Assembly (NCBI GenBank): GCA_028293445.1
Contig: JAQGOU010000006.1
Span: forward strand, 1-49,631
Direction of reading: 5' to 3'
DNA: 49,631 nt
Source of the DNA: Verrucomicrobiales bacterium
GTDB taxonomy: Bacteria; Verrucomicrobiota; Verrucomicrobiia; Limisphaerales; JACDHS01
The translations under genes and the position numbers were made by a program. Below the pieces are notes generated by a model. It searched no databases, was not told the origin of the DNA, and worked only from the letters and a program-made list of their open reading frames with translations. This document shows positions 1,351 through 27,300 of the stretch, one piece after another (position 1 is the first letter of the stretch; each line of letters starts with the position of its first letter).

Positions 1351-1663
1351 CGACGCTTTTCCCAGAGCAGGAAAATACTTTCCGAGCTCAGCGGCCATTT
1401 TTCCGGAGTAGAAAAACTCTTTCCGAGGTCGGCGGACCTTTTCCCAGACCGGTAAAACACTTTCCGAGCTCAGCGAGCCTTTTTCCAGAGTAGAAAAACT
1501 CTTTCCGGCTCGACGGCGCTTTTCCCAGAGCAGAAAAACACTTTCCGAGCTCGGCGGACCTTTTTCCGGAGCAGAAAAACTCTTTCCGAGCTCAGCGGGC
1601 CTTTTTCCAGAGCGGTAAAACACTTTCCGAGCTCGGAAAGTTTTTCCCGGAGTGGAAAATCCG
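1351..1663. repeat. Intergenic array A1: about 7.6 degenerate tandem units of 41 bp
   Basis: Units start at 1351, 1392, 1433, 1474, 1514, 1555, 1596, 1637; unit ~ CGGACCTTTTTCCGGAGCAGAAAAACTCTTTCCGAGCTCAG; lies between convergent genes. Confidence 0.9.
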
Positions 1664-1801
1664 TAGTTTTGGTCAAAAATCGAGGTTTTTGGAACGCATT
1701 TAGGACCGTCGGCCGTGAATCTGTCCCTTAGGAGAGACAATCGTCCCGGTGATCCTCGATGGTGTGGCGCGGGTACGACCGTTGTTCCGCAACCAATCGA
1801 A

Positions 1802-2662
1802 TCATTCGCCAGGAGACCAATCGGCGGGAGCGAGTGCTTCGATGCCGGGATTTCGAAAGGCAATGCGGCGTTCTTTGTAGAGGGCGCCGAGGGCTTGTTT
1901 GAAAGCTTTTTTGCTCACACCGAATTTCGCACGGATGGTTTCCGGCGAACTATCGTCGTCCAAAGGGAGTTTGCCTCCATTCTTTTCCAGAGCGTCGAGA
2001 ATCAGCTGCTTGAGCGGGACTACGCGCTTGTAACCAGAAGCATTCAGACTGAGATCCATTTTGCCGTCGGGTCGAATGGCGCGGACAAATCCTTGTAGTT
2101 TCTGGCCGATATCCAGCGGTGCCGGGAGTTGATCGTGATAAAGGAGACCGCGATGCGAATTTTCGACAATGGCGTTGTAGCCGAGCGGGGTTCTATCAAT
2201 GACGATGAGATTTACCGGTTGTCCATTGCGATAGTTTGCAGGCTGGCGACTCAAATGGCGGTGGAGTCGTGTTGTTGCCACGATGCGATTGGTTTTTTCA
2301 TCGAGCATGACATAAGCGACGATCTTTTGACCGACACGCACCGGAGCATCCTGTTCGCGAAAGGGAAGCAGCAGATCTTTCGAGAGCCCCCAATCGAGAA
2401 AGGCGCCGATGCGGGGATTCACGCTGATGACTCTAAACTCGGCGAATTCGCCCACCATGGCGCGCGGCATCTCGGTCGTGGCGACCAGGCGATCCTCCGA
2501 ATCGAGATAAATGAAGACGTCGAGGAGTTGTTTCGGGGCAACGTCGTGAGGCACATACCGACCGGGCAGCAATACTTCGCCGAGCTCACCGGCATCGAGA
2601 TAGAGGCCGGGCGCGGAAGCGCGGACAATGGAGAGAGTGTTGCGTTGACCGATCGTTGCCAT
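1802..2662 (-). CDS. cvfB: S1 RNA-binding domain protein, CvfB/YitL family
   Basis: MATIGQRNTLSIVRASAPGLYLDAGELGEVLLPGRYVP...; S1-like repeats and C-terminal winged-helix-like FGVSKKAFKQALGALYKERRI. Confidence 0.85.
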   Translation of the reverse strand: MATIGQRNTLSIVRASAPGLYLDAGELGEVLLPGRYVPHDVAPKQLLDVFIYLDSEDRLVATTEMPRAMVGEFAEFRVISVNPRIGAFLDWGLSKDLLLPFREQDAPVRVGQKIVAYVMLDEKTNRIVATTRLHRHLSRQPANYRNGQPVNLIVIDRTPLGYNAIVENSHRGLLYHDQLPAPLDIGQKLQGFVRAIRPDGKMDLSLNASGYKRVVPLKQLILDALEKNGGKLPLDDDSSPETIRAKFGVSKKAFKQALGALYKERRIAFRNPGIEALAPADWSPGE

Positions 2663-2853
2663 AACACGGCAATATAACTTGCCAGACCGAAAGTGGAGAA
2701 AAAATTACCGGAAGGGAGGTGAAGCGCGTTGCGATTTTGGAGTGAGCCGGGGTCCCCACGCGCGAGAAGGACTGGCTGGATCGAGGCCGGGGCTGTCCAC
2801 CTTGCCGAAGCAAAGTCCGGACAAACCGCCGGCCATCAGATCCGACCGGAAGA

Positions 2854-2946
2854 CTACTTCTTCTTAGCGGCTTTTTTTGCAACCGGCTTTTTAGCGGCTA
2901 CTTTTGCTGCGGGTTTCTTAGCTGCTGCTTTGGATTTAGCTGCCAT
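2854..2946 (-). CDS. 30-aa Lys/Ala-rich histone H1-like microprotein
   Basis: Reverse complement reads MAAKSKAAAKKPAAKVAAKKPVAKKAAKKK*; purine-rich stretch upstream of the ATG; too short for the ORF track. Confidence 0.7.
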   Translation of the reverse strand: MAAKSKAAAKKPAAKVAAKKPVAKKAAKKK

Positions 2947-3526
2947 AGTATTATGTTTTCTTTTTTTAGTTTACTTGATTCCGGAGACAACGTTTCGCCG
3001 GAGATCATGGAAACCATGCCCTGTTTTAACGGGTTTTGTAAACAACGGACGTAAATTCATTTTAGGATAATCGGATCGCGTGGACCGATCCGATCACGAC
3101 ATCACTGCGGCCCAATTTCGTCCGCGGGAGAAATTCATTGCGTAGACAATAAATGCCAATACTCATTTATACCCTGTAAACATTGACGCAAAACCTCTCC
3201 TGCTCTTTTCTCGAGCGGGCTCAGATCATTGCGTGAACGGGTGCATTTTTATTTCACGACGCCGTCACCAAAGCTCCGGCATGCACGCGACATTCTTGCG
3301 CTCACGACCTCGCGATGAAGTTTTTTTTCGCCATTTGAGAATTAAAATTCGCGACGAATGCTTTTCCCGGCGCTCTTTTCCGCCGTTGTGATTTTCGAAT
3401 TTCTCATTTTACAAAATGAACCCGCGCATCTTTTTTATGGCGCGTAAACACGAAAAATGCGCCTCACAAAAAAGAACTCGCGTGCGCGTGACGAACCCAG
3501 GTTCTTTGGAGCCATTCTATGTTGAC

Positions 3527-3549
3527 ATCCTCTTATCTATTTAGAGGAT
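3527..3549 (+). promoter_or_regulatory. Dyad that would sequester the Shine-Dalgarno of the pilin-like gene
   Basis: ATCCTCT-N9-AGAGGAT perfect 7-bp arms; the right arm contains AGAGG just upstream of the GTG at 3556. Confidence 0.55.
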
Positions 3550-3555
3550 ACGCAG

Positions 3556-4434
3556 GTGGTCAGGATACAACTTCCGCGGCAAAGGGTTTCGCGGCCGATA
3601 AATCAGCGGCTCGGTTTCACATTAACTGAATTGTTAGTGGTGATCGCTGTTGCGGTCGTCCTGGTCAGTTTGCTGTTCCTGGTGATCACCCGGTCAAAAT
3701 GGATGGGCCAGAGCAAATATTGCCTGAGCAATCTCAAACAACTAATGACGGCGAACCAGCTTTATGCTGGGGACAATCAGGATTATCTGCCACCCAATGA
3801 GCCGATTGCTCACGGACAAACGGCGCCGTGTTGGGTGGGTGGCTACTTGGATTTTGCCTCCGATAACACCGACAATACGAACAGCGCTTTGCTGACCGAT
3901 CCCCGGTATTCAAAGTTGGCCCCGTATGCCACTTCGGCCTCGTTGTATAAGTGTCCTGGCGACCCGAGCGTTGTCTCAGGGCTCGGCGCTCGCGTTCGTA
4001 GTGTTGCCATGAATCAGGCAGTTGGGACGCGAGCGAACCGTGAGCCGGTTTCGGGCGCCTGGCTGCCCGGGGGCTGGGATGACCGACAAACGTCCTGGGT
4101 CACCTATCCGAAGTTGTCGAGCATGACGAACCCGTCCCCGGCAATGCTCTGGGTGTTGATCGACGAGCAACCGGACAGCATCAATGACGCCGGCTTTGCG
4201 GTACAATGCAAGTTCGCGACCGGGGATGACGCCGTGATCATCGATTTTCCGGGTGTTTTCCATGAGGGCGGGACAGGAATGGCTTTTGCCGATGGCCACT
4301 CGGAAACCCGCCGTTGGACCGGGCAAGCCATTCAACCGAAGCCAGACTACAAGGGCTGGACGCATCGCAAGCCGGCACGAGACAGTGAGGAAGATTTGAA
4401 ATGGCTACAGGTGAGAACTTCCGCGGCGAAATGA
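3556..4434 (+). CDS. Prepilin-type N-terminal cleavage/methylation domain protein with H-x-DG-like C-terminus
   Basis: LGFTLTELLVVIAVAVVLVSLLFLVI; C-terminal GTGMAFADGHSETRRW. Confidence 0.88.
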   Translation: MVRIQLPRQRVSRPINQRLGFTLTELLVVIAVAVVLVSLLFLVITRSKWMGQSKYCLSNLKQLMTANQLYAGDNQDYLPPNEPIAHGQTAPCWVGGYLDFASDNTDNTNSALLTDPRYSKLAPYATSASLYKCPGDPSVVSGLGARVRSVAMNQAVGTRANREPVSGAWLPGGWDDRQTSWVTYPKLSSMTNPSPAMLWVLIDEQPDSINDAGFAVQCKFATGDDAVIIDFPGVFHEGGTGMAFADGHSETRRWTGQAIQPKPDYKGWTHRKPARDSEEDLKWLQVRTSAAK

Positions 4435-4624
4435 TCGGCCGCAAAAAGAGCTGAATTCAGAATTACCGCCGGCATTCTTTCGGATCGCACACGTTTGCCT
4501 GCCGGCATTCTCGCATCGCGTGAAGGGGCTGCGGATAAACTGGACGGCCTCTCTGTGTAATCCCTTGGCCGTCGACGGCACTACATGGTTTCACAAGATC
4601 CGCCGCTTCACGTCGAGCCAGTAC

Positions 4625-4660
4625 AAGAAAAAGCGCGAGCGTTCCGCAACGCCCGCGCTT
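4625..4660 (-). terminator. Rho-independent terminator of the large amidase gene
   Basis: Minus strand AAGCGCGGGCGTT-GCGG-AACGCTCGCGCTT followed by a T-rich tract. Confidence 0.85.
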
Positions 4661-4679
4661 GTGTTACCCATCCAAATGA

Positions 4680-7600
4680 CTATTCGTTTGAAGAAGCCGT
4701 ATCGACTTCGATAATGCGATAAACTCGTTCTTTCGTCGCATTGCTGACGGCCACAGATTCCGTGGCTTGCGTCGCAGTGATCGGCGCGTTGAGACTCACC
4801 CAAGCGGTGCCTTCGCTGCTTTCTTTGTATTGCACCTGATAGGTTTTCCCGACGATCGCATTCCACGTGAGGGTCGCTGTTTCATCCGAAGAAACAATAT
4901 CTCCGCCGTCCACGGACAGTGCACCAACACTGTCAGCAATTACCACCACGGTAATGTCCTTAGAATCCGCTTTCGGGGATGATCCATTCGTCGGAGCATC
5001 TTGTACGGTGACCGTGATGAGATTGGTCGTTCCAGCAAACGTCGCGTCGGGTGTCCAACTGAAGGCGCCTGTGGCTTCATCCATCACCGCGTTCGTTGGC
5101 GCATCGGCATCAATCGTGAAGCCGAGCAATTCTCCAACGTAAGCATCCGGATTTACGCCGGTCGCCGTGAAGTTGATTGTGCTGCCGGCTTTAACAGTCA
5201 CTGGACTGCTGAGCGATGCCGTCGTGACTACCTGGAAGTTATCCATATAGACTTTGTACGTTCCTGTGCCGCCTGCGGGCACGAGGGCCAAATGTTCCAG
5301 CACACCTTTACCGGAAGCGAGGACGCCATTACCCGTCATGGAACGACAGGCTTCAGCAGGCAGGTTGAACGTTAGAGTAGTCCAATTGCTCGCCACGAGT
5401 TGACGATTGGGGAAAGGAGCACCGCCGACCACATTGGTGACGCCCACGAATTCAATGTTTCCGGATACACCACCATTGGCTCCGATCTCAGCGGTTCCGC
5501 CGGTCTCACGAAGGCCCAAGCCAACTTTCAATGCTTTATCGGACCAGATGTCGAATCGAACCGTCTGGCCCAGATCAATCGTCGGGTTCGGAACGAATTG
5601 CGCATCGCTAGTGGTAAGACGTACCCATGGATTCGTCGTCCCGGTCTTGAAGTTGAACGTCGCAAACATTACCCGGGTGCTCGTGTGGCCTGCCGGATAG
5701 GTATTCGTCACGCTCGTCAGATTAGGCGTGGTGTTCAAGAAACCCGACATCCCCGGAGCGAACGTCGGTTGACGGAACATAACGATACCGCTGGATGTGC
5801 CGGATGAGAACGTTTGGTAATCGACAACGGTTTCAGTCACCGTGGCAGAGCCAAGGGTCAGCACCGGTGGCGCATTCGTCGCTGAGATGATGATGGTAAT
5901 GTCCTTCTCGTCATAGAGTGGTGGCACTCCATTATCCGTCACGCGAATGGTGATAATGTTGGTGCTATAACCGCCCGAGGATGGCCATGTGAACAACCCT
6001 GTTGACGGATCGATTGTCGCGCCAACCGGCGGTGTGCCTTGCAAACTGAACGTCAGCGTGTTGGCGGGGAGATCATCGTCTTCGGCTTCCCCTTGCAGCA
6101 ACACCACTTCTCCTGAAGCAATTTCGACGGCCTGATCCGGGAATCCACCGAGTCTCGGCGGGGTGTTCACTTTGTTAACAACAATCGTTACATTCTTCGA
6201 GTCGCTAAGATTACCCGGACCGTCGTCGGTTACCGTCACGGTAATCACGTTTGTGCTTGGTCCCTGAATTGAATCGGGGGTCCAGGAAAAGACGCCGGTG
6301 GCAGGATCGATTTCAGATCCAGCCGGGGCGTTTGTACCAAGGCTGAAAGTTAGGTTTTGACCCGGCAGATCTGCGTCCGTAGCAGAGGCAGTAAACGAGA
6401 GCGATGTTCCAGTATCAACCACCAGATTAGTTGTGACACTGACGACCTGAAAGTTATCGAAGTAAGCATTATAAACTCCCATACCTCCCGCTGGAACTAG
6501 CGCGAGATGTTCGAGAACGCCTTTTCCAGTCGCAAGAACTCCATTACCCGTGAAAGCACTGGTCGCTTCGCTTGGCAGGTTGAACTCCAGGGTGGTCCAG
6601 ACTCCCGCAGCCACGGTGTGGGTGGGATTGGGTCCGGTGCCAAGTGCGCCACTCGATCCAACGAATTCCAGCGAACCAGTTGTTCCACCGTTTTCGCCGT
6701 AGTTTGCGCCAGTAGCAGTCTCACGAACGCCCAGTGCGATCTTGAGAGCCTTGTCGGTGTAAACATCAAACCGGACTCGTTGATTCAGGTTAATCGTCGG
6801 ATTCGGCAAGGTGCTCGCATTAAAGGTGCTCAGGCGCAGCCATGGGTTCGTCACGTTCGTTTTGAAACTAAAGTTCGCCCACAAAACGCGCGAGCTGATG
6901 TTCCCTGCCGGGAATGTTCCCTCGACCGAAGTCGTGTTCGCAGTTGTCGTATCCAGGAAGCCGCTGGTTGTACTGGAATACGAGGGCTGATGGAATAACA
7001 CCGTTCCATTGTACGTTCCATCAGACAACGTTTCGAAGGTGGCTATATTCGTTATCGTCGTCACCGTCGTATTTACGTTGAGAACTGGCGCAATGTTTAC
7101 TTCATTGACGACGACGTTGAAGCTTTGCCGTGCAAATAATGCCGGTGAGCCGTTATCCGTGACGCGCACGGTGACGGGATAAGTATCGGGACCATCTGCT
7201 TCAGTGGTCGTCCAGGAAATCGCACCGCTCGCTGCATTGATGGTCATTCCTGCAGGGGCGCCGGCTTCGAGACTATATGTTTTTCCATTTGCTGGCAGAT
7301 CCGAATCGGTGGCCGAAGCTGTGACACTTAAGGTGCTTAGCTCATTGATCGTCTGCGTCGAAATCGTTGCGAGCACAGGAGCGACGTTAACTTCCAGCAC
7401 CGTCACAGTAATGGTCTCGAAGTCATTTGAGTTCGGAGATCCATTGTCTGTAACTCTAACTGTTAGCGGGAATGAGCCCGGACCTTGAGCTTCTGTGGGG
7501 GTCCAGGTGAAGGCGCCGCTCGCGCCGTCGATGGCGGCACCTGACGGCGCACCAGCGTCGAGGGAATAAGTCCGGGTTTGCCCGACATCCGGATCCGTGG

Positions 7601-10070
7601 CAGGCGCGGTGAAAGTCAACAAGGCTCCTTCGCTCACGGTTTTGTTTCCAATCGCGGCCAACACGGGGGCGGAGTTTCCGGTGGAAATAACACTGACTTT
7701 GACAATTTCAAAATCTTGTCCGCCGAGCTGATCGGTGACGCGAACCGTAATGTTCCAGGTGCCCACTTGGCCTGCAGTCGGAGTCCAGGTGAACGCTCCG
7801 GTTTTCGGATGAATCGCTGCTCCGGCGGGAGCTCCTGCATCAAGGCTGTAAGTTAACGTGTTCTGTGCGATAACCGCAAAGTCGTCGAGATACACCGTAT
7901 AAGCGCCGCTGCCGCCCGCTGCGGATAACGCGACATGCTCAAGAACCCCCTTTACGGCAGCAACTGCACCATCACCCGTAAAGCCCTTCTGGCTTTCAAA
8001 GGGAATGTTGAAGGTCAACGTCGTCCAATTCGACGCCGTAATCGCATGGTTCGGAAGAGGCGCGCCGCTCACAACGTTTGTCACTCCAGCCCAATCGATA
8101 GTTCCGGTCGAGCCGCCGTTCGCACCGTAAGCGACGGCTGTGCCTGTCTCGCGCACACCAACGCCCACTTTCAATGCCTTTGTGGAGTAGAGCTTGAAGG
8201 AGAGCGCTTGGGCTCCATCGATTGTCGGGTTCGGGATATTCGGCACGTTGAACGTGTTTAGACGAACCCATTCATTCGTAGTTCCGGTTCTAAACGTCCA
8301 GCCTACTTTCATCACTTTGGCACTGCCGTTCCCAGTCGGACCGGTCGTTACTACCATGGTGTAGTTGGTCAAGGCTGTGTCGATAAAGGCACTTGTTGTT
8401 GCCGAGTTCGCTGGCTTGTTAAACATCACCGACTCGTTCGCCGAGTTGTGCGCGAAGCTTTCAAATGTCTGCCACGTCGTTGTTGTGACCGAATGATTCG
8501 GATCGGTCGAAGCAGCGGTGAACGCGAGCGGTTGGCCCGCGGTTACCTGCTTGGTCCCGATGGCTGACAAGACAGGAGGCGCAGCCGGTGTAGTCGCACT
8601 TGCGACATTGGAATAGGTCGAGTTGCCGTTGGCGTTGTACGATCGCACGCGAAAGTAATAGAGCGTATTCGCCGCGAGTCCCGTGCTTGCAAATGTCGTA
8701 GCGGCCGCGGCATTCGTCGCGATCTGCGTAAAGGTTACGTTGTCCGGAGACCGCTCAATTTTAAATCCAACTTCGCTGCTGGAATTGTCCGTCCAGGCTA
8801 TATCGATCTCGGACGAACTGACTGCGCTGGCGGTTAATGCGGTCGGCGCCTGCGGTGCCGTGATATCACTGGCCGTATTCGAATAGGCGGAGTTGCCGGC
8901 TAAATTGTAAGCACGAACGCGATAATAATAGGTCGTATTCCCCGCGAGTCCGGTATTCGAATATGTAACCACGTTTACCGCGGTCGTCGCTATTTGAGCG
9001 AAGGTGACGTTATCGCCGGACCGCTCAACTTTGAATCCCGTTTCGTTCGCCGAGTTTTGCGTCCAGGCAAGATTAACCTGGGAACTGGAAGCAGCCGTCG
9101 CCGTCAAAGCCGTCGGCGCCGCTGGCGGCACGTCGGCGGTTGTGGCGTTCGCCGTGTTGGAATAGCCAGAGTTGCCGGTCGCGTTATAGGCGCGAACGCG
9201 ATAGTAATATGTGGTCGCTGCGGATAATCCGGTATTCGGATAGGTGAGCACATTCGCACCTACCGTAGCGATTTGCACGAATGTCCCCGCAGCGGCGGGC
9301 GCGCGTTCGATTTTAAAACCGGTTTCGATGCCGGAGTTATCTGCCCATTTCAAATTGATCTGCGTTGTGGAAGCTGCTGTTGCCGTCAAGGAGCTCGGTG
9401 CCGAAGGGGTCGAAACCGTTCCTTTAACAAGGTCTACGTATCGGGTCCAATCCCAGTAGGCGCCGGGATCGGTATGGTCGTTGCAGTTGATGAAGGCGTC
9501 GCTATACCCTTGCCCCGACATCCAGGTGCGCCATGCCGAAATACGTTTTTGATCGTGACCGATGATGTGGTTGCGGTCTTTTGCAAGAGAGTACTTGTCG
9601 CAGACGTGCCGCGTAGCGAGGGAGGACGTGTTATACATGGCGTCCGTAAACCATGCCGGATTGCTCACAAAGCCTTCATGCTCCGTGCCGTGGCAATATT
9701 GATTCCAACAGCGCGCGCCCCAGGAATAATAGGCTTCGCGCACCATCTGTGTGATTTCACCCGCTGCATAATCCGAGCTCGTGTCCTTTTTGCCATTAAC
9801 GCAATAGGTCATGCTTACCATCGTGCTGGATCTCTGAAAATAAGAGATGGTCGAAGCGTAATATCCCTCCATATCGTGCTCGACCATGAAGCGATGGCCA
9901 TAGCCCGTTGTATACCAGTGGCCGGAATAGGCCGATCGCCATACCGCCGGGGCGTAATCCGTGCTCGCGTTCACTCGAAGAACGCCGCACAAAATACTTA
10001 TCAGCAACAGGAGTTTTAGGACTTTATTCGCGCCGTAAAAACGCGCGACCGCGGATGTGGTGGTTTTCAT
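4680..10070 (-). CDS. 1796-aa secreted protein: N-terminal N-acetylmuramoyl-L-alanine amidase-like domain, 3 FN3 domains, cadherin/He_PIG-like Ig repeats, 3 related lectin/CBM-like modules
   Basis: FMVEHDMEGYYASTISYF...NHIIGHDQKR...DHTDPGAYWDW (Amidase_2-like); three FN3 repeats (APTALTA...YYRVRAYN); repeated TYSLDAGAP.G..ID..SGAFTWTPT; three ~200-aa modules ending GVLEHLALVPAGG.G.Y..Y.DNFQVV. Confidence 0.88.
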   Translation of the reverse strand: MKTTTSAVARFYGANKVLKLLLLISILCGVLRVNASTDYAPAVWRSAYSGHWYTTGYGHRFMVEHDMEGYYASTISYFQRSSTMVSMTYCVNGKKDTSSDYAAGEITQMVREAYYSWGARCWNQYCHGTEHEGFVSNPAWFTDAMYNTSSLATRHVCDKYSLAKDRNHIIGHDQKRISAWRTWMSGQGYSDAFINCNDHTDPGAYWDWTRYVDLVKGTVSTPSAPSSLTATAASTTQINLKWADNSGIETGFKIERAPAAAGTFVQIATVGANVLTYPNTGLSAATTYYYRVRAYNATGNSGYSNTANATTADVPPAAPTALTATAASSSQVNLAWTQNSANETGFKVERSGDNVTFAQIATTAVNVVTYSNTGLAGNTTYYYRVRAYNLAGNSAYSNTASDITAPQAPTALTASAVSSSEIDIAWTDNSSSEVGFKIERSPDNVTFTQIATNAAAATTFASTGLAANTLYYFRVRSYNANGNSTYSNVASATTPAAPPVLSAIGTKQVTAGQPLAFTAASTDPNHSVTTTTWQTFESFAHNSANESVMFNKPANSATTSAFIDTALTNYTMVVTTGPTGNGSAKVMKVGWTFRTGTTNEWVRLNTFNVPNIPNPTIDGAQALSFKLYSTKALKVGVGVRETGTAVAYGANGGSTGTIDWAGVTNVVSGAPLPNHAITASNWTTLTFNIPFESQKGFTGDGAVAAVKGVLEHVALSAAGGSGAYTVYLDDFAVIAQNTLTYSLDAGAPAGAAIHPKTGAFTWTPTAGQVGTWNITVRVTDQLGGQDFEIVKVSVISTGNSAPVLAAIGNKTVSEGALLTFTAPATDPDVGQTRTYSLDAGAPSGAAIDGASGAFTWTPTEAQGPGSFPLTVRVTDNGSPNSNDFETITVTVLEVNVAPVLATISTQTINELSTLSVTASATDSDLPANGKTYSLEAGAPAGMTINAASGAISWTTTEADGPDTYPVTVRVTDNGSPALFARQSFNVVVNEVNIAPVLNVNTTVTTITNIATFETLSDGTYNGTVLFHQPSYSSTTSGFLDTTTANTTSVEGTFPAGNISSRVLWANFSFKTNVTNPWLRLSTFNASTLPNPTINLNQRVRFDVYTDKALKIALGVRETATGANYGENGGTTGSLEFVGSSGALGTGPNPTHTVAAGVWTTLEFNLPSEATSAFTGNGVLATGKGVLEHLALVPAGGMGVYNAYFDNFQVVSVTTNLVVDTGTSLSFTASATDADLPGQNLTFSLGTNAPAGSEIDPATGVFSWTPDSIQGPSTNVITVTVTDDGPGNLSDSKNVTIVVNKVNTPPRLGGFPDQAVEIASGEVVLLQGEAEDDDLPANTLTFSLQGTPPVGATIDPSTGLFTWPSSGGYSTNIITIRVTDNGVPPLYDEKDITIIISATNAPPVLTLGSATVTETVVDYQTFSSGTSSGIVMFRQPTFAPGMSGFLNTTPNLTSVTNTYPAGHTSTRVMFATFNFKTGTTNPWVRLTTSDAQFVPNPTIDLGQTVRFDIWSDKALKVGLGLRETGGTAEIGANGGVSGNIEFVGVTNVVGGAPFPNRQLVASNWTTLTFNLPAEACRSMTGNGVLASGKGVLEHLALVPAGGTGTYKVYMDNFQVVTTASLSSPVTVKAGSTINFTATGVNPDAYVGELLGFTIDADAPTNAVMDEATGAFSWTPDATFAGTTNLITVTVQDAPTNGSSPKADSKDITVVVIADSVGALSVDGGDIVSSDETATLTWNAIVGKTYQVQYKESSEGTAWVSLNAPITATQATESVAVSNATKERVYRIIEVDTASSNE

Positions 10071-10305
10071 TTTCGTTTTAGTTCCTGAATTGGGTGTTCA
10101 GAAACAATAGGTTTTTTAACAACTGTTGCGGGATAAGTGTAGGTCTTATACTACGTCGAAAGCTCTTTTGTCAATAGGGCTTATAGAATATATGGAAAAA
10201 TATTGCCTTTCGGCCTTCGTGTGTAGTAAACAGCCTATGCGCTTTGACGGGGGGCGGTGATGGACAAGATCTTCTATCGCATCGTACACTACGAGCACCT
10301 TTCCC

Positions 10306-14224: not shown

Positions 14225-14428
14225 ATGCGTTAGAAATAATTGGCGACCAAGCCAGGAATAATTCCGGCGCTAATTTGCCCACGAAAGCTTTCCCCTCTTT
14301 TTTCTCCGGGCGAAAAAGCGGGAGCTTTTAAGCTCTCCCGAAACTGGCTCCGTTTCTGTTTTGCCTCGGATCCTTTCCACGGACGAAAGTTGCCAAAAAA
14401 TCGACTCGATTTAGCCTCCCGGAAAAAA

Positions 14429-14780
14429 TTCCGCTAAAAATCCGGACCTTTTGCACACACTCAAAAACTTTCCGCTAAAAAAATATGAGATTTGCACTGT
14501 GTGCAAAAACTTCCGCTAAAAAAATAAAAGTTTTGCACACACCGGAAAACCTTCGGCACGCGGATAACTTTTTTGCACACACTTAAAAACATTCCGCCAA
14601 AAAAATATAAAATTTGCACTGTGTGCAAAAACTCCCGCTAAAAGAATAAAAGTTTTGCACACTGTGCAAAATGTTCCGCGAAAAAAATAAAAGTTTTCTA
14701 CTGTGTGCAAAAGTTCCGGCGAAAAAGTTTTTTCTTTTCAACTCAGTGGAAAAAATTCCGCTAATTAGCGGAATTTTTTT
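14429..14780. repeat. Intergenic array A2: eight ~41-bp units plus a terminal palindromic half unit
   Basis: Units start at 14429, 14470, 14511, 14552, 14592, 14633, 14674, 14714, 14756; consensus ~ TTCCGCTAAAAAAATAAAAGTTTTGCACACTGTGCAAAAAC; convergent intergenic region. Confidence 0.92.
14750..14779. terminator. Perfect 30-bp palindrome, bidirectional terminator-like
   Basis: AAAAAATTCCGCTAA|TTAGCGGAATTTTTT between convergent genes. Confidence 0.8.
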
Positions 14781-14952
14781 AGGGAGGTGCAAACCAACCA
14801 GCGACAAGGACTTAGAGATTTTGACCAGTTTTGCGCTGTGAAAAATCGAAAATGGCAGGATTTCTTCCGGTAACGTTATCGGGAGTTCGTCGTGTCGCGG
14901 TTCACCCGTGGAAAATTTCACCGGCATTTGCGGCGGCACACGGCGTAATAAA

Positions 14953-16398
14953 CTAATTCATCTTCTTCCGTTTATAATCCGGATTGGACGCCGGGCTTTG
15001 GGCTCCTACGTTTTTCAACCAGTCGTGCAGAAGCAATTTCAATTCCTCCGTTTTTTCGGGCATTGTCGTCGAAAGGTCCTTTTTCTCGGAAGGATCCAGG
15101 TTCAAATTGTACAGTTCCGCGTGCTTGTCTTCGTAGTATTCCAACAGCTTCCAATCCCCGGCACGCACAGCGCTCACTGGACCTGTGGTTTGATAATAAT
15201 GCGGGAAGTTGAAGAAGAGTTCCTCGCGCGCTTGCGACCCTTTTTCATTTTTTAAAAACGGCAACAGGCTCGTCCCATCTGCGGATGTGTTCTTAAGATT
15301 TGCGGCAGCCGCGATCGTCGAATATAAATCTGTCGAAATCACGGGTGCGGAACAGACTTTTCCGGCGTGCGTCACGCCGGGGCACCGAACAATCAACGGA
15401 ACCCGAATGCCGCCTTCATAGAGCGAACCTTTCCCGGATCGAAGCGGGTAATTATCGGTGACCTGCTGCTTATCCCATCTACCGATGTAACCGCCATTGT
15501 CAGAGGTGAAGATGACCAGGGTGTTTTCTTCCGCGCCACACGCCTTCAATTTCGCCAGCACGCGGCCGACACTATCGTCCAGGCTCTGAATCATGGCTGC
15601 ATATTTGGCGTTACGATGATGCAGGCTGGGATTCGCTTTGAGTTTCTCCGCGTATCGTTCAACGTATTCCGGCTTCGCCTCCACCGGTGTGTGCGGCGCG
15701 TGATGCGCCAGATAAAGGAAAAATGGTTTCGCCTTTGCATCGTCGATGACCCGCATTGCCTCATCCGTCAGGCGGTCGCTCAAATATTCGTTGGTGTTAC
15801 CGAATTCCAGATGCGGGACATAACGGAAGCCGTCGCCCCAGGTATTCGAACCGCGATACGGAAAGAAATAGGTTTCAGGCGCGCCCCAATGCGTACCACC
15901 GATATTCGCATCAAAGCCAAACCCTTCGGGATAGTGCGATGCGTCCCCCAGATGCCATTTGCCGACGAGCGCGGTGACATAGCCCGCGTCATGAAGCACC
16001 GCGGCAATTGTCTTCTCTTCTAGAGGCAGATTGCCGATGGCAACAGGAGGAACAAGCTTTTGATTTCCGGCGGACTGCAATGTCGCTTCAAACCAAGTCG
16101 TCATATGCAGGCGCGCGGGATGTTTGCCCGTTAGAATGCTGGCTCGCGTTGGCGAACAGACCGGCGACGCGCTGTAACAATCAGTGAAGCGAACGCCTTC
16201 GCTCGCGAGACGATCAATATTCGGCGTCTCCACCAAATCCCCGCCATAACAACCCAGATCAGACCAGCCCAGGTCATCAGCCAGAATGAGAACGACATTC
16301 GGCGGTCTGCTTGCGGCGGGCGACGCGATCACCACGCTGAAAAGAAACGCCACGACCATGCAGGGCGTAATGAGGACGCGCGGTGAAAGCCAAGGCAT
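14953..16398 (-). CDS. Sulfatase (arylsulfatase family, Cys-type)
   Basis: NVVLILADDLGWSDLGCYGG; FGly motif CSPTRASILTGKHPARL. Confidence 0.95.
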   Translation of the reverse strand: MPWLSPRVLITPCMVVAFLFSVVIASPAASRPPNVVLILADDLGWSDLGCYGGDLVETPNIDRLASEGVRFTDCYSASPVCSPTRASILTGKHPARLHMTTWFEATLQSAGNQKLVPPVAIGNLPLEEKTIAAVLHDAGYVTALVGKWHLGDASHYPEGFGFDANIGGTHWGAPETYFFPYRGSNTWGDGFRYVPHLEFGNTNEYLSDRLTDEAMRVIDDAKAKPFFLYLAHHAPHTPVEAKPEYVERYAEKLKANPSLHHRNAKYAAMIQSLDDSVGRVLAKLKACGAEENTLVIFTSDNGGYIGRWDKQQVTDNYPLRSGKGSLYEGGIRVPLIVRCPGVTHAGKVCSAPVISTDLYSTIAAAANLKNTSADGTSLLPFLKNEKGSQAREELFFNFPHYYQTTGPVSAVRAGDWKLLEYYEDKHAELYNLNLDPSEKKDLSTTMPEKTEELKLLLHDWLKNVGAQSPASNPDYKRKKMN

Positions 16399-18148: not shown

Positions 18149-18310
18149 TAATTCATTCTTCTTCTGAGCTGAATATAGCAATTCTTCCGACGAAAAAACT
18201 CTGGTTCTTGCTTTTCAATTCCAGCTTGTGTTCAGGCCGGGGGCCTCAGATTCATAAAAACGACTTGGACTAACCGCCGGTCGCCGGTAACAATTTACGT
18301 TCTCACGAAT

Positions 18311-19633: not shown

Positions 19634-19647
19634 CCGCGAGGCGCGGT

Positions 19648-20298: not shown

Positions 20299-23279
20299 GT
20301 CTGCTCAGGCTTGGGGGTTTTGATCGGAAATTGAATCGAAATCTTAGCGCCTTTTCCGGCAGCGCTCTGCAATTCAAACTGGCCACCGACTGCTTGCATC
20401 CGTTTCTGCATATTTTTCAAACCGTTCCCGGCGTGGGCTGCTTCAGTCGGGCTAAATCCTTTGCCATCGTCCTCCAGTGAAAAAAATAAAATGCCGTCAC
20501 CACTGCGTAGCTGCATGGTGGCTGCTGTGGCGCCCGAATGTTTAACGACGTTGTTTAAACATTCTTTCACCACGGAAAAGAAATTATGCCGCACATCGGA
20601 GGGTAATTGGATGTCTACTACTTTGTCGGGAAACTCGAACCGGCTTCGAATGGAAGCAGTTTCGAGATAGGCCTGCGCATACTCATGAATGTATCCGACA
20701 AGTTTTTCGAGCGAATCGTTTTCCGGGTTCACTGCCCAGACGATGGCGTCGAGGTTGCGCACCACATCGTGCACGGCCGAGTTCATTTTCGTGAGGTGCG
20801 CTGGCGTGTCAGTGGCATTCTTTTTTGAGGCCAATTCACTCAAGAGAAGAATTTCGGTTAACCGCGCGCCGAGTTCGTCGTGCATATCTTGGGCGATGCG
20901 GGTGCGCTCGCGTTCGACAGCATGCTCCTCTTCAGTGCGACGCAGCTGCGATTTAATCTTATGCACGGACACATAACGTACCGTTCCCACTACTAGGCCG
21001 GAGGCGAGCAGCGCCAGCGCGCTCATGAACCACCAGCTTTTATAAAATGCCGGCGTCAGCGACACATTAAATGTGATCCCCTTTTGATTCCACAGGCCGT
21101 CACTGTTGCAGGCTATCACGCGGAATTGATACTCACCTGCAGGCAGGCGCCCGTAATGAGCCTCCCGCTTCGTAGCGTCGATCCAATCGCTATCCCATCC
21201 GTCGAGTTTGTATTTAAAGGCCATCTTTTCCGGCGCATCAAAACTCGGGGAGGTAAACCGAAATACCATTTCGTTTTTATTAGCCACCAGGCGCACGGGC
21301 TGTGTTGAGTCTACTTCATGGCCATCAACGAGGACCTCTTCCAGGTGCAGTTGGGGCGGTTCCTGATTGAATGTTTCCCGGCGCGGATCAACAACAACAA
21401 CCCCTCTACTCGTGGGGACCCAGAGCTTTCCATCCTGCGTTTTACAGAGCGCGGTGCTTCCTGTTCCTTTGCATTCGGTGCTTAACATTCCGTCTGCTTT
21501 GCCGAACACCGTGCAGGAGATTGTCTTCTCCAGCCCCGCTTCAAAATCGGCCAGGTTCTTCTTGTGGATACAGAATATCCCGCGGGACGATGTGAGCCAC
21601 AGCCGGCCGAATTCGTCTTCCTGAATCCCGTGGATCTGGTCATGGAACAATCCATTCGTGGTCGTGAAGGTAGAAAAGGTTCCGTTGTGAAAACGATTCA
21701 GGCCGCCCATCGTTCCGACCCAGACACTGCCTTCTTTGTCTTCAAAGATTACTGACACGAAGCGGTGCGAAAGACCGTTCTGCACTCCATAGCTTTTAAA
21801 CGTTCCCTTTTCTCCAATGGCCATTCCCCCATCCGTTCCACACCACAACCTGCCCTGCCGATCTTCATAAAAGCACTCAATCGAATTGGATGGCAGCCCG
21901 TTCGCGACGGTGTAGCGCGTGAATTCTGAATTCTGGTATGCCGCCAGCCCGCTCCTTGTGCCGACCCACAAAACTCCTTTGCTGTCTTCAAACAATGCGC
22001 GAATGGAGTGATCAACAAAGCCTTCCTTGCTGCGAAGGTGATCGATCCTCTCGTTCGACATTCGATTTAGTCCGCCGTCATAATCCATGCCGAACCACAT
22101 CTCACCTGCGCGACTGGGGAGAAGCGTTAAAACCAAATCACTCGAGAGGCGTTCGGTCCGTGAAAATTTTTGGATCTCATTCCCGCTGACCTTGTTGACA
22201 CCACCACCCCACAAGCCAATCCAAACCGCACCGGCTTTGTCTTCCGCAATTGAGCTGACGGAGTTGTGCGAAAGTCCATTCTGCATCGTGAGCGTCGTCA
22301 GCACCCGGCGCTTCATCCGAATCAAGCCATCCCGCGTGCAGACCCAGAGATTTTGCTCGCGATCTTCGCTGATGCCATAGACGCGGTCGAAAGATCCGCC
22401 ATCCGTCGCCGTTTCGATGATGAACTTTTCTTCACTGCGCCGGGTCAGCCCATTGAGAGTACCGATCCAGAGCTGTCCCTCGTGATCTTCAAAAACGGAG
22501 CTGACGATGTTATCCGACAGCCCGTCTTTCTGCGTGAAATTCCTAAACTTCCCATCTTTGAAGCGGCTCAACCCGTAATGCGATCCGACCCAGAGATTTC
22601 CAGAACGATCCAGGCAAAGCGCCCGCGTTGAATTGTGTAGCAATCCCTGCTTCGAGGTGTAGGTCGTGAATTTGCCTTCCGCATAGCGGGACAGGCCCGA
22701 CGCCGTGGCGATCCACAAGTTGCCCTTGGTATCTTCGCATATCGCACGAATGGAGTTATGAACAAGGCCATCGTTTGTGGTGAAATTGGTGAAAGCGCCG
22801 TTCTGGTGTTTGAACAGGCCTTTCGATCCCGTCCCGATCCACAACGATCCGTCCCTGCTCTCAAAGAGCGTGGTGATTGCATCCTCACCGATCACTTTCG
22901 GAATTGGGAATGGCCTGATGGCGCCTCGCAAAATATGCGTGACAGTTCCCGAATCGGTTCCAATAAAGATCGCACCGGATTGGGTTTGGTGGATCGCTGT
23001 GATCATCTGATTGCTGAGCCCCGTGGTGGTAATGGTGACGAACCTCGCCCCGTCGAAGCGGGCCAGGCCTGCTTCCGTGCCGATCCACAAATAATTGTCC
23101 GCTGACTGAGCCGCGCTCCGGACAGCGTGCGTTGGAAGTCCATGTTCTGACTGCCACCGCTGGGAGATATAAGATTCGGTCTCTCTGACCACGGCCGCCT
23201 GAAGTTGGGGCACGACCGAGAGCGCCACGCACAAGGCGAGGATGAGAAGGCGACACTGCTGGCTTGCGCTCATGTTCAA
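20295..23279 (-). CDS. Periplasmic two-component-propeller/Y_Y_Y sensor histidine kinase
   Basis: Repeats of LWIGT..GL.R; FKYKLDGWDSDWIDATKREAHYGRLPAGEYQFRV; DMHDELGARLTEILLLSE; HATPase motifs. Confidence 0.95.
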   Translation of the reverse strand: MNMSASQQCRLLILALCVALSVVPQLQAAVVRETESYISQRWQSEHGLPTHAVRSAAQSADNYLWIGTEAGLARFDGARFVTITTTGLSNQMITAIHQTQSGAIFIGTDSGTVTHILRGAIRPFPIPKVIGEDAITTLFESRDGSLWIGTGSKGLFKHQNGAFTNFTTNDGLVHNSIRAICEDTKGNLWIATASGLSRYAEGKFTTYTSKQGLLHNSTRALCLDRSGNLWVGSHYGLSRFKDGKFRNFTQKDGLSDNIVSSVFEDHEGQLWIGTLNGLTRRSEEKFIIETATDGGSFDRVYGISEDREQNLWVCTRDGLIRMKRRVLTTLTMQNGLSHNSVSSIAEDKAGAVWIGLWGGGVNKVSGNEIQKFSRTERLSSDLVLTLLPSRAGEMWFGMDYDGGLNRMSNERIDHLRSKEGFVDHSIRALFEDSKGVLWVGTRSGLAAYQNSEFTRYTVANGLPSNSIECFYEDRQGRLWCGTDGGMAIGEKGTFKSYGVQNGLSHRFVSVIFEDKEGSVWVGTMGGLNRFHNGTFSTFTTTNGLFHDQIHGIQEDEFGRLWLTSSRGIFCIHKKNLADFEAGLEKTISCTVFGKADGMLSTECKGTGSTALCKTQDGKLWVPTSRGVVVVDPRRETFNQEPPQLHLEEVLVDGHEVDSTQPVRLVANKNEMVFRFTSPSFDAPEKMAFKYKLDGWDSDWIDATKREAHYGRLPAGEYQFRVIACNSDGLWNQKGITFNVSLTPAFYKSWWFMSALALLASGLVVGTVRYVSVHKIKSQLRRTEEEHAVERERTRIAQDMHDELGARLTEILLLSELASKKNATDTPAHLTKMNSAVHDVVRNLDAIVWAVNPENDSLEKLVGYIHEYAQAYLETASIRSRFEFPDKVVDIQLPSDVRHNFFSVVKECLNNVVKHSGATAATMQLRSGDGILFFSLEDDGKGFSPTEAAHAGNGLKNMQKRMQAVGGQFELQSAAGKGAKISIQFPIKTPKPEQT

Positions 23280-23416
23280 AGAGGGATGCGATGAGTGTAT
23301 CAGGCAGGTGTCGGGTTTTGAAAACGTTTTTCGCGGTGTTATTCTTCCGTCCGCAATCGCAACCGCCGGGATTGGTCTCGCCTGTTCGTTTCTTTTGTAT
23401 TTAGATCCGCCGTCCT

Positions 23417-24515
23417 GTGCTCACAAAGCAATTTTTCGTTTTATGCTTTCTGCTTGGCTTCGCTTTTCCGCGTTGCGCTGTCTCCATGGAATCAATTGAG
23501 GTTTCAGCAGATCACGAGCATTTCGCGTTCAGCAAATCGAAAGCCAAGTTCTCTCCGCGAGGTTTTAATTATGACCGTGATTACAAAATGCGTTTGCTGG
23601 AAGACTACTGGGATACGGAATGGGAAACCGTCGTCGAAGATTTTCGGGAGATGAAACAGCTCGGCGCCAATGTTGTTCGCATTCATCTACAAGTGGCGAA
23701 ATTCATGGAAGGTCCTGATAAACCAAACCGCCGCTCTCTCTCTCGTTTGAAACAGCTGCTGAACCTGGCAGAAACGACCGGCCTCTATCTCGACATCACC
23801 GGCCTTGGTTGTTATCGCAAAGCAGACGTCCCGGCCTGGTTCGAACACCTCAACGAACAGGACCGTTGGACTCTCCAGGCCAACTTTTGGCGAGCCATCT
23901 CAAAATCTTGTTCGAAAAGCCCCCGCTGTTTTCTGCTACGACCTGATCAATGAACCCGTGGTTCCAGAAACCCGCTCGACCGATTGGCTCGTAGGACAAC
24001 TGGCCGGATTTTACTATGTGCAGGCCATTTCGCTTGATCGAGGGGATCGAACGCGCAGCGCTGTGGCCGCAGCCTGGATTTCAAAACTGACGAAAGCGAT
24101 CCGCCGCGAAGACCAAAGGCACCTCATCACCCTCGGCTTTCTTCCCAACAGTGCCGAAGCTTCCGGTGGCTCCGGTTTCCCTCCGCGCGAGGTGGCTCGC
24201 GATTTAGATTTCGTTTCGGTGCATCTTTATCCTAAACCCGGACATTTAACGGAGGACTTGGCTCTCTTACGCCAGTTTGCGATCGGCAAACCGCTCGTCA
24301 TTGAAGAAACTTATCCAATGCCGGCCAGTGCTGCTGACTTGAAAACGTTTCTCGAGGCCTCAATTCGGATAGCTAACGGCTGGATCGGGTTTTATTGGGG
24401 CAAACCGCCCGCAGAACTCCGCGAATCCAAACAAATCGGCGATCACATCCTCTTGAGTTGGTTAACTGTGTTCAAGGAGCTGAATCATTCGAACCCTCCT
24501 GGGAAGGAAAAATAA
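23417..24515 (+). pseudogene. Cellulase/GH5-like glycoside hydrolase split by a frameshift
   Basis: ORF 23417..23953 and ORF 23805..24515 join as ISKSCSKSPAVFCYDLINEPVV if one C is removed from the CCCCC at 23920-23924. Confidence 0.75.
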
Positions 24516-24790
24516 TTGTGAACTGTTCACCGGTTACGTTGGAATCCTCCGTGAATAGTATGGGTGCAACTTTAATAACATCGACTAAAGCGACATACGG
24601 GAACTTACCGACAGAGTTATCAGGGGGTGCTGACGCCCGTTTTGAGCCCGTCCGTCCTGACGGATTGGAGTTGTTTGACTTATTCACACCCCTTAATAAG
24701 AATAGACTTTTAGATTCAAAGAAGTCTTTAATAGAGCGTTGTGGATCGCGCACACCATCGATTTAAGTAAATCGACCCGATTCCAACCCG
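24515..24790. other. Candidate origin/DnaA-binding region
   Basis: TTATTCACA (24680-24688) matches TTATNCACA; AT-rich stretch; dyads TCGATTTA-AG-TAAATCGA (24758-24775) and GTGAAC-T-GTTCAC; dnaN and mnmG nearby. Confidence 0.35.
24678..24737 (+). repeat. Copy 1 of a ~60-bp direct repeat shared with the dnaN leader
   Basis: acttattcac...aataagaatagacttttagattcaaagaagtctttaatagagcg, compare 25626-25688. Confidence 0.75.
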
Positions 24791-24835
24791 GTGTCCAGAC
24801 CTTGCCGTCAGGACCGTTGTTTTAAGAAGAAGCGT

Positions 24836-25477
24836 ATGAAAAAATTAGTTTTGTCTGTCCTCCTACTAGTTGCGGCGTTCGCCAGCCACGGAATGGTCCT
24901 CTGTGTGGTCAACAAAACAGATGCCCCTGTGACGCTAACGTGTCAATACGGAGGCCTGATGACTGTGGATCCCGGGACTACGAACGAAGTTTCCGTCGTT
25001 CTTCCGACTCTGCCCATCACATTTTCTCAGCCATTCGATCCAGCCGTTGGCTTTGAGCCCACGACGGTTGCCTGGGTCAACTGGATTACCGATTACAACA
25101 TCACCATCACGAAAGCACGCTTTTGGAATGACCCGGCCAAGTTGCTGCGAGTCAACCTGCGTCCAGTCCGCATCGAATACGTCACAGTGTGGAATGATTG
25201 CGCCGAAAATTTCAGAGTCGTCGATGTGAACACCCATCGGTTGTACGGGATCGTCTATGGAACGAACGACAGCGAGCACGATCACTTCACCACGTTTCGG
25301 TTTGTGAACAGGGTGAACCTGATGTTTCGCCAGCCCTTTAACGCCGAGTTGCATCGCGTTCCGACCGGTCACGTGCGCATCCCCGCCGGGGGCAATTGGA
25401 ATGTTTTTGTGTCGCAACCGGCTGGCTATCGCTTCAACGGCGACGTGTTGCTGAGCAAGATGGAAACGGCACCGTAA
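24836..25477 (+). CDS. Secreted protein of unknown function
   Basis: Signal peptide MKKLVLSVLLLVAAFASHG; ATG at 24836. Confidence 0.65.
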   Translation: MKKLVLSVLLLVAAFASHGMVLCVVNKTDAPVTLTCQYGGLMTVDPGTTNEVSVVLPTLPITFSQPFDPAVGFEPTTVAWVNWITDYNITITKARFWNDPAKLLRVNLRPVRIEYVTVWNDCAENFRVVDVNTHRLYGIVYGTNDSEHDHFTTFRFVNRVNLMFRQPFNAELHRVPTGHVRIPAGGNWNVFVSQPAGYRFNGDVLLSKMETAP

Positions 25478-25525
25478 GCCTTGCCGAATTCTGCAGGGTG
25501 GCGGTCACCCCGAGTGTTTATTTTG

Positions 25526-25559
25526 GACCTCCCGACGAAAGCGGGAGGTCTTTTCGTTT
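25526..25559 (+). terminator. Rho-independent terminator
   Basis: GACCTCCCG-ACGAAAG-CGGGAGGTC-TTTTCGTTT. Confidence 0.9.
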
Positions 25560-25625
25560 CCATACCGCAGAAAAATCGGAATCACGCCGGAAAACTCCTC
25601 ACTCCTTGACACCTGGGGTTCTTTC

Positions 25626-25688
25626 ACTTATTCAGAACTCTTAAAGTAAGAATAGACTTTTAGTTTCAAAAAAGTTTTCATTAGCGCG
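25626..25688 (+). repeat. Copy 2 of the ~60-bp direct repeat, immediately 5' of dnaN
   Basis: acttattcagaactcttaaagtaagaatagacttttagtttcaaaaaagttttcattagcgcg. Confidence 0.75.
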
Positions 25689-25690
25689 CC

Positions 25691-26797
25691 ATGAATCTCG
25701 CAATAGCAAAAGATCAAATCATTCACGGGTTGCAAGCGGTCCAAAACGTCGTCAGCACACGAACCACGCTGCCGATTCTTTCGAATGTGCTTTTGCGCGC
25801 CGAAGAGAACATGCTGGAACTGACCGCGACAGATCTGGACGTAACCGTCTCCTGCTCAGTGGAAGCGGCCGTAAAAAAGGTGGGCTCAACGACGGTTCCT
25901 GTGAAGAAAGTTTATTCACTCATCAGCGCGTTGACGAATCCCGAAATCGAATTCGAAGTGGACGACAAAAACGCCTGCAGCATCCGCGCAGGCTCGTCGT
26001 TTTATAAGATCAACGGTCTCGCCGCCGAAGAATTCCCGCCGATCCAAAAATTTAAAGAGAACAAAAAGATCACGCTCCCTCAGGAAAAGCTGAAGAGCAT
26101 GCTCAAGAAAACGTCCTTCGCGATCTCCACGGACGAATCGCGTTACGTCTTGAACGGAATTTTCATCAGCCTGAAGGATCACAAGATGACCATGGTTGCG
26201 ACAGATGGCCGCCGCCTTGCCCTCGTAGATGAAGAAGTGGAACTCGGCGACACCACGGGAGAATTCATCGTCCCAACGAAGGCTGTGAACGAATTGAGCC
26301 GCCTGCTCAGTGACAAGGGTGAAGTTGAAATCAAATTTACGGAAAACCAGGTCGCCTTCGCGTTGAAGAACGAAAAGGGCGCTTCGATTTTGATCATTTC
26401 GAAATTGGTGGAAGGAAATTACCCCAATTATCGCCAGGTGATCCCGGCTGAAACCAAGGAACGCATTCCTTTGGTGCGCGAAGAATTTCTGGCCGCCTTG
26501 AAGCGCGCCGAAATCATGACCAGCGACAAGGCGAACTCGGTGAAACTGCATTTCACGAAGAACAACCTCGCGATCACGGCCAATTCCCCCGAAGTCGGTG
26601 AAGCCCGCGAAAGCATTGCCGTGAATTACAAAGGCAAGGAATTCGCGATCGCGTTCAACCCGGCTTACATGATTGATCCCCTCAATGCGTTGAGCTGCGA
26701 CGAAGTTTATCTCGAACTGATCGATGAACTGAGCCCCGGCGTCCTGAAGACCAACGCGCCGTTCCTCTACGTCGTCATGCCGATGCGTTTGAGCTAG
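25691..26797 (+). CDS. dnaN: DNA polymerase III beta sliding clamp
   Basis: MNLAIAKDQIIHGLQAVQNVVSTRTTLPILSNVLL...; VATDGRRLAL; C-terminal YVVMPMRLS. Confidence 0.97.
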   Translation: MNLAIAKDQIIHGLQAVQNVVSTRTTLPILSNVLLRAEENMLELTATDLDVTVSCSVEAAVKKVGSTTVPVKKVYSLISALTNPEIEFEVDDKNACSIRAGSSFYKINGLAAEEFPPIQKFKENKKITLPQEKLKSMLKKTSFAISTDESRYVLNGIFISLKDHKMTMVATDGRRLALVDEEVELGDTTGEFIVPTKAVNELSRLLSDKGEVEIKFTENQVAFALKNEKGASILIISKLVEGNYPNYRQVIPAETKERIPLVREEFLAALKRAEIMTSDKANSVKLHFTKNNLAITANSPEVGEARESIAVNYKGKEFAIAFNPAYMIDPLNALSCDEVYLELIDELSPGVLKTNAPFLYVVMPMRLS

Positions 26798-26830
26798 GAA
26801 GCTTCGGCTGGAGCTGATTTATAATCTTGA

Positions 26831-26860
26831 GGCTGCGATCCTGATGATCGCAGCCTTTTT
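26831..26860 (+). terminator. dnaN rho-independent terminator
   Basis: GGCTGCGATC-CTGAT-GATCGCAGCC-TTTTT. Confidence 0.92.
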
Positions 26861-27086
26861 CGTTTCAATAGAGGCGGATAATCGATCTCAAGCGTCCAAC
26901 CTCCAAGCTCCAGAGAATTTCCAAAAGCCAAAATCCAATCGTCAGTGGTGAGTGGCCAGGCCAAGCCGAGCTTGGCAATCGGTTATTGGCTTTTGACTAT
27001 TGCTCCTCAGGTAGGCTGAAGTTCAGTAGCTGAAAGGATCACGAAAGGCTGCCACACATGCTTCCCATTGCTCATCAGCCAGTTAA

Positions 27087-27300
27087 GGCCTTTCTAAAAG
27101 GCTTTAAAAAATCGGTTTACTCAGAAAAGGGCATTTTAAAAGTCTTTCAAAGAGCCCTAAACTGGGAAAACCCCTTTTCAAAAGTCTTTTGGAGAGGGGT
27201 AAACCGAGAAAAGGGCTCCTTAAAAGTCTTTTGAAAAGGCCTTTCCCGGGGAAAACGCATTTTAAAACCCTTTTTGGGAGGCACTTTTTCTTCCCAGCGA
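27087..27300. repeat. Intergenic array A3: four ~42-43 bp units plus a partial
   Basis: Units start at 27087, 27130, 27172, 27214, 27257; unit ~ GGCNTTTTAAAAGTCTTTTGAAAGGGC..AAACCGGGAAAA(C/G). Confidence 0.85.

Follow-up and report, generated by a model that had tools for sequence, protein, structure and literature searches.

Iteron and centromere arrays consist of phased direct repeats placed whole helical turns apart, with dyad sites on which nucleoprotein complexes assemble. The intergenic DNA of bacteria is as a rule compact, and satellites without coding function are held to be rare in it. Among 261 prokaryote genomes surveyed, those of Leptospira interrogans and Methanocella conradii were the only ones to have non-coding satellite families that are dispersed and have long units; the families described there have 3-6 arrays each and units of, for example, 37, 46 and 69 bp (46 and 37 bp in L. 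interrogans) (Subirana and Messeguer 2019, PMC6749651). Repetitive extragenic palindromic sequences (REPs), bacterial interspersed mosaic elements (BIMEs) and REP doublets forming hairpins (REPINs) are clustered intergenic palindromes of 20-40 bp, for which roles in supercoiling, termination and mRNA protection have been proposed and which have been reported in Verrucomicrobia (O. terrae) (PMC3733652, PMC2817692). Intergenic tandem repeats linked to deletions are noted in lake metagenomes for Planctomycetota, a neighbouring phylum of the same superphylum (PMC9426551). Here we describe three intergenic tandem arrays, A1, A2 and A3, in a 49,631-nucleotide stretch of DNA (the window, contig C267) from a Verrucomicrobiales bacterium of the order Limisphaerales, whose assembly comprises 6.89 Mb in 659 contigs, together with the class of arrays to which they belong.

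The class is fixed in unit length and internal layout and variable in sequence. With a probability of about 0.4 we read the arrays as dispersed non-coding satellites that form lattices of palindromic double-stranded DNA sites for a dimeric, shape-reading architectural protein.

Arrays of one unit length in two genera

The arrays of the window, as delimited with Tandem Repeats Finder, are the following:
1348-1659, no strand assigned: array A1, 41-bp units, 6.8-7.5 copies, CTTTTTCCAGAGCAGAAAAACACTTTCCGAGCTCAGCGGAC
14419-14764 (also called as 14449-14697), no strand assigned: array A2, 40-41-bp units, ~8 copies, TTTTGCACACACTCAAAAACTTCCGCTAAAAAAATAAAAG
27085-27281, no strand assigned: array A3, 42-bp units, ~4.5 copies, AAGGGCTTTTTAAAAGTCTTTTAAAAAGCCCTAAACCGAGAA

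A lag scan of the window, run with 123-base windows, gave exactly three peaks (A1 and A2 at lag 41, A3 at lag 42), and no peak was obtained from 320 kb of block-shuffled copies. Both methods thus confirmed the three arrays of the original prediction, which had been made from the sequence of the window, and gave units of 41, ~41 and 42 bp. That prediction had also suggested a common class set by length and layout instead of sequence, a proposal which is strongly supported.

Intergenic DNA was scanned in a nearly unbiased sample of 1.31 Mb, of which 621 kb came from this genome and 693 kb from G001, a genome of another genus of the same family. The stretches were mostly picked by contig number, and a few (transposase loci and the start of contig C551) were not chosen blindly. 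A period of 41-43 bp, or a small multiple of it, was found in 58 of the 63 intergenic arrays (24 of 26 in this genome and 34 of 37 in G001), the remaining five having periods of 103, 24, 21, 21 and 16 bp. With one dominant period in two genomes and no peak in shuffled DNA, chance periodicity can be rejected. The arrays have units of 40-43 bp, a median length of 295 bp and a median of 7 copies. They occur once per ~20-26 kb in both genomes (~39-49 per Mb), and by extrapolation ~270 arrays are estimated for this genome and ~280 for G001.

When 80 arrays were clustered with BLASTN, they fell into 51 families without mutual sequence similarity, of which 16 had at least two arrays in the sample and none was common to both genera. 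Within the same genome, BLASTN detected arrays related to A1 in six other contigs; for A2 the number was at least six, and for A3 it was four. The three arrays, which had been regarded as specific to their loci, therefore each have paralogues elsewhere.

Other families of the order and related lineages, sampled over ~1.14 Mb, showed no comparable density: four arrays with a 21-bp period were found there, as well as a short 41-bp array in one group of similar loci. The four 21-bp loci are intergenic and from the same order, and three of them have a clear short palindrome in each period. Another Verrucomicrobia genome, G039, has two arrays (L148 1274-1462; C28 53368-53547 and C85 62662-62862) in which a 12-bp palindrome, AAGCGGGAGCTT, recurs unchanged at steps of 21 bp, with variable 9-bp spacers. 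Four successive spacers match in order between the two arrays and most others differ, so that they look like a miniature repeat-spacer array. Intergenic arrays of 21-bp period from other families of the order lie at L103 1310-1560 (G017), L111 500-690 (G037) and L175 20-300. In L103 the palindrome changes with its symmetry mostly retained (TGTCGGACGACA, TGTTCCGGAACA, TGTCGTCCGACA); a second, weak match to this array exists in its own genome, and the array of L111 has none. The short 41-bp-period arrays lie in similar intergenic loci of assemblies labelled as planctomycetes (L171 3221-3637, L174 1990-2368 and L172 487-738), and in two of these three a 48-bp-period array adjoins. Both 21-bp arrays of the two-genome sample are heptamer repeats; intergenic heptamer repeats of the TTCAAAG and GGAGTTT types, unlike the 41-43-bp arrays, were seen in G001 at L217 7246-7400 and L236 1155-1280.

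Dyads, linkers and conservation within the unit

A typical unit consists of a dyad of ~18 bp, a GC-rich linker of ~4 bp, often a second dyad of ~14 bp, and a further linker, with the dyad centres ~20.5 bp apart. When one representative unit per family was compared with shuffled units, the best dyad had 6.43 of 8 pairs matched (5.49 ± 0.09 in shuffles) and the second best 5.29 (4.74 ± 0.08), and the autocorrelation of the dyad score at half a unit was 0.11 (-0.01 ± 0.022). Dyad centres were chosen on the pairs at distances d = 3-8 alone, so that the remaining distances could serve for an independent check: symmetry persisted at d = 9 (0.53 compared to 0.29), was gone at d = 10-13 and came back at d = 14-20 (0.53 compared to 0.25 at d = 14). 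The 5' arms were T-rich in 36 families compared to 13 (p = 0.0014), and linkers were GC-richer than arms (p = 7e-5).

Because of these T-rich arms and GC-rich linkers, units show the succession of T-run, core and A-run noted in the original prediction. Its reading of the rotated A1 and A2 units as TTCCG, T-run, core, A-run and C was correct, the units being TTCCGAGCTCAGCGGACC-TTTTT-CCAGAGCAG-AAAAA-CACT for A1 and TTCCGCTAAAAAAATAAAAG-TTTT-GCACACACTC-AAAAA-C for A2. The recurrence of T-run, core, A-run and GC-rich linkers holds over the 51 families, but the A/T phasing proposed with it is right only in part, as dyad symmetry underlies the pattern and the A-tracts are not specially phased at the helical repeat (P/4, a quarter of the unit). 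No common tetranucleotide tag, such as GTAG or CGTC, stood out in the consensus units or k-mer counts of the 51 families. A single common short motif was also rejected: an early count with too loose families gave weak TTTCCG hits only and is not relied on.

Several palindromes can be seen in the arrays of the window:
1623-1640, no strand assigned: CTTTCCGAGCTCGGAAAG, a perfect palindrome within the final units of A1, by direct reading of the sequence
14750-14780, no strand assigned: terminal palindrome AAAAAATTCCGCTAATTAGCGGAATTTTTTT, kept with small changes across A2 copies
27129-27157, no strand assigned: imperfect palindrome GGGCATTTTAAAAGTCTTTCAAAGAGCCC in one A3 unit

Compared to its own reverse complement, the consensus unit of A3 shows 76 % identity (null 54 %). 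Five of the six A1-family arrays (A1 and those of L042, L043, L045 and L046) end with the closing sequence GAGCTCGGAAAGT or CTCGGAAACT.

Identity among units of one array is only ~67-77 %, and conservation is unevenly distributed along the unit. Compared to linkers, and adjusted for base composition, conservation among units of the same array was higher by 0.105 in dyad 1 (95 % confidence interval 0.072-0.144) and by 0.087 in dyad 2 (0.048-0.127), the positions of which were not used for choosing the centre; the intervals were bootstrapped over 38 families. Of the observations made here, this excess speaks most strongly against the arrays being mere debris, and it indicates constraint after the birth of an array. 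Compensatory covariation of the arms was not found, the mean excess pairing being 0.002 ± 0.008 within arrays and -0.005 ± 0.013 within families. In A1 alone, the top two covarying column pairs (6-16 and 28-38) were symmetric in the two dyads, and the pooled test of the A1 family gave no excess. Without compensatory changes, the constraint looks like that of conserved half-sites read by a protein, not of pairing arms.

The arrays could also be structural DNA acting without a dedicated protein, absorbing negative supercoiling by cruciform extrusion or intrinsic curvature. Perfect palindromes with arms of at least 6 bp occur at 9.8 per kb, which is 3-4 times the value for shuffles, although inflated since the units repeat, and in the dyads matches are less frequent among the central base pairs than in the arms, which resembles hairpin loops. 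However, the dyad arms are only ~7 bp long, and such short arms are poor for cruciform extrusion; the lack of covariation also speaks against this explanation. Curvature by phased A-tracts is not supported either: the power of A/T-tracts at the helical repeat (P/4) was +0.11 ± 0.20 log2 compared to shuffles, not specially raised, while the harmonics P/3 and P/6 were stronger (+0.90). We consider structural DNA a quite unlikely explanation.

Position, dispersal and possible role

According to a codon-usage gene caller the arrays are intergenic, and none is inside a confidently called gene save for one marginal case, a 42-bp array (L252 12269-12557) that is 62 % covered by a called gene and was left out. 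Protein-coding repeats were rejected for the class, as 41 and 43 are not multiples of three and the arrays lie outside called genes. No bias in gene orientation was detected, co-directional, convergent and divergent neighbours occurring in about the same proportions as at long gaps generally. The median distances to gene starts and gene ends (319 and 233 bp, respectively) did not differ significantly (p = 0.14).

In the window, A1 is located in the gap between convergent genes for an RF-1 domain protein and a CvfB-like protein, A2 between convergent genes for a Mal s 1-like protein and a sulfatase (14953-16398), and A3 between dnaN and pgi-gidA (mnmG), which are co-directional. Both genera have an array upstream of pgi, which is A3 in this genome and a 42-bp array of unrelated sequence in G001 (L089 12083-12438), but with the high density of arrays this coincidence may be due to chance. 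At two other syntenic places, near groEL (L235 3907-4243) and an MlaD-domain gene (L074 10798-11178), an array is present only in G001. The CvfB-like protein (1802-2662) has homologues in Verrucomicrobia of the Limisphaerales/Pedosphaera type with identities of at most 71 %, and in 80 named loci from Verrucomicrobia and related groups the surroundings of cvfB contained no counterpart of A1.

The sulfatase of the window has 84 matching stretches in the G001 genome, indicating a large sulfatase set. Large sets of this kind are known from polysaccharide-degrading relatives. The window has no tRNA genes. A possible 30-residue lysine- and alanine-rich peptide, MAAKSKAAAKKPAAKVAAKKPVAKKAAKKK, is encoded at 2854-2946 on the minus strand and resembles the tail of H1-like bacterial proteins; it may represent either an entire small protein or an open reading frame that arose by chance. 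It had been put forward as a candidate binder, and nothing was found that ties it to the arrays.

Strings of hairpins could alternatively act at the RNA level, being transcribed and then ending transcription, protecting mRNA ends or serving as small RNAs. The folding z-scores are strongly negative compared to shuffles (mean -6), A1 and A2 lie between convergent genes, and the palindrome of A2 at 14750-14780 is terminator-like, with a T-run. On the other hand, the z-scores are inflated by the repetition itself and alike on both strands, the arms show no compensatory covariation within arrays or families, the orientations of neighbouring genes are close to background, and the window has no Rfam match. 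RNA-level elements are therefore, in our opinion, unlikely. Absence of both orientation bias and strand asymmetry in folding is as expected for a function of double-stranded DNA, such as the protein lattice that we propose.

Homology between members of a family mostly stops 0-30 bp from the array, which indicates that in most families the array itself is the unit that has been moved or copied. A2 is an exception, since 100-300 bp of flanking sequence are conserved on both sides between contigs, including the terminal palindrome:
14252-14928, no strand assigned: A2 dispersed element, array together with flanks that are conserved on the left and on the right, occupying almost all of the gap between the convergent genes

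This non-coding element is ~680-890 bp in size and carries the palindrome TTCCGGTAACGTTATCGG in its right flank. Copies are found in contigs C5 (93.6 % over 677 bp), C185, C301, C495 and C434, with a distant one in C330. The A1 and A2 patterns were absent from viral contigs, the A2 element from plasmids and A1 from phages. Matches to the Y1 transposase family PF01797 numbered 3 in this genome and 7 in G001, compared to 1-30 in most of the order, and thus showed no enrichment. Y1 transposases are common throughout the order and their presence is not diagnostic; a link to REP-associated tyrosine transposases is not supported by these counts. In G013, of the same order, nearly all of ~30 PF01797 matches cover only model positions ~6-62, and the matching sequences suggest a truncated or divergent multi-copy element.

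Such dispersal is what self-spreading satellites would give. They would have no role for the host, and replication or recombination favouring short palindromes (hairpin-primed slippage or a transposase that uses hairpins) would create and move the arrays, leaving the length and the dyads as traces. Besides the cassette-like spread with homology usually over within 0-30 bp, the high density, the lack of preference for position or orientation and the restriction of each family to one genus agree with this explanation, as do published observations that spontaneous satellites are common in bacteria and archaea and that dispersed non-coding families imply some mechanism of transposition (PMC6749651). 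The higher conservation of dyads than of linkers within arrays, that is, constraint after their birth, argues against it, as does the unenriched presence of Y1 transposases throughout the order. We regard self-spreading as nearly as likely as the protein lattice.

In the protein-lattice reading, each unit would present a strong dyad of ~18 bp (T-run, GC-containing core and A-run), often with a second one of ~14 bp half a unit away. Sites would recur every ~20.5 bp, i.e. two helical turns, which would bring them all onto one side of the helix. A dimeric protein, loosely sequence-specific or reading shape, could then coat an array of ~7 units (~300 bp), and the resulting nucleoprotein node between genes might help in chromosome organisation or form topological borders. 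The arrays would spread mostly as whole cassettes and be partly homogenised in place afterwards, so that sequences drift apart but length, dyads and phasing are retained. The fixed length, the dyads with their higher conservation, the intergenic position and the family members at several loci are observed, whereas the protein, the node and its role are inferred. The 21-bp-period arrays at four other loci of the order, three of them with palindromes, are a further point in favour of this reading. Local homogenisation, also part of the original prediction, holds in part, but many arrays also belong to dispersed families.

Several points weigh against a protein lattice. The families of one genome are so different that a single ordinary sequence-specific protein cannot read all of them. 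The two best dyads are 20-21 bp apart in 14 of the 51 families (5 expected), many families have only one clear dyad, self-complementarity of the whole unit is significant in 18 of 48 arrays, and the consensus common to the families is weak. Array positions are comparable between the genera at a few syntenic places only, and the families were sampled from two genomes, both fragmented assemblies.

Random slippage alone would hardly produce the dominance of one unit length in two genera that have no array sequence in common, together with a conserved dyad layout. The common layout suggests a shared job, such as chromosome organisation. The further step, to a chromosome-organising system of hundreds of arrays that are recognised by layout and whose architecture is kept by selection while their sequences turn over between loci and genera, is in our judgement less likely than not. 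The arrays raise the concrete questions of which protein, if any, reads layout over sequence, and whether bacteria keep satellite-like chromosome nodes.

Comparison with known repeat systems

In the open-licence full-text literature no description was found of a class with constant length and layout and free sequence. The arrays are not those of a clustered regularly interspaced short palindromic repeats (CRISPR) locus, as the whole 40-43-bp unit repeats and the linkers are only ~4 bp. With REPs, BIMEs and REPINs they share repeated, clustered intergenic palindromes. However, each family of REPs has a single sequence, in most cases tagged with GTAG or CGTC, and its members occur as singletons, dimers or irregular clusters (PMC3733652, PMC2817692), whereas the present arrays are strictly tandem with a fixed period, come without an enrichment of Y1 transposases and belong to many unrelated families. 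Membership in a single tagged palindrome family was rejected, there being 51 unrelated families and no common tag that stands out.

Phased repeats and dyad sites are also features of iteron and centromere arrays; for the arrays described here, binding of a protein is proposed. Arrays of the iteron and centromere type occupy one locus or a few loci on a replicon, have a single sequence and lie next to a cognate gene, while the present arrays are chromosome-wide and have many sequences. The repeats of Planctomycetota differ in that the part of their description available to us mentions no fixed unit length or internal architecture (PMC9426551).

The closest likeness is to bacterial satellites, which are also intergenic tandem arrays with units of more than 30 bp, distributed chromosome-wide in several sequence families (PMC6749651). 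The arrays have at least four tandem repeats, units within the range of 10-200 nucleotides, a non-coding location and families present at several loci, as satellites do, and we class them as a variant of bacterial satellites. Satellites of the Leptospira type form few families with varying unit length, whereas here an estimated ~270-280 arrays per genome have nearly all units of 40-43 bp and a common dyad layout. Their density of ~39-49 per Mb compares with 23 per Mb for the highest bacterial value tabulated in PMC6749651, with detection methods that differ between the two studies.

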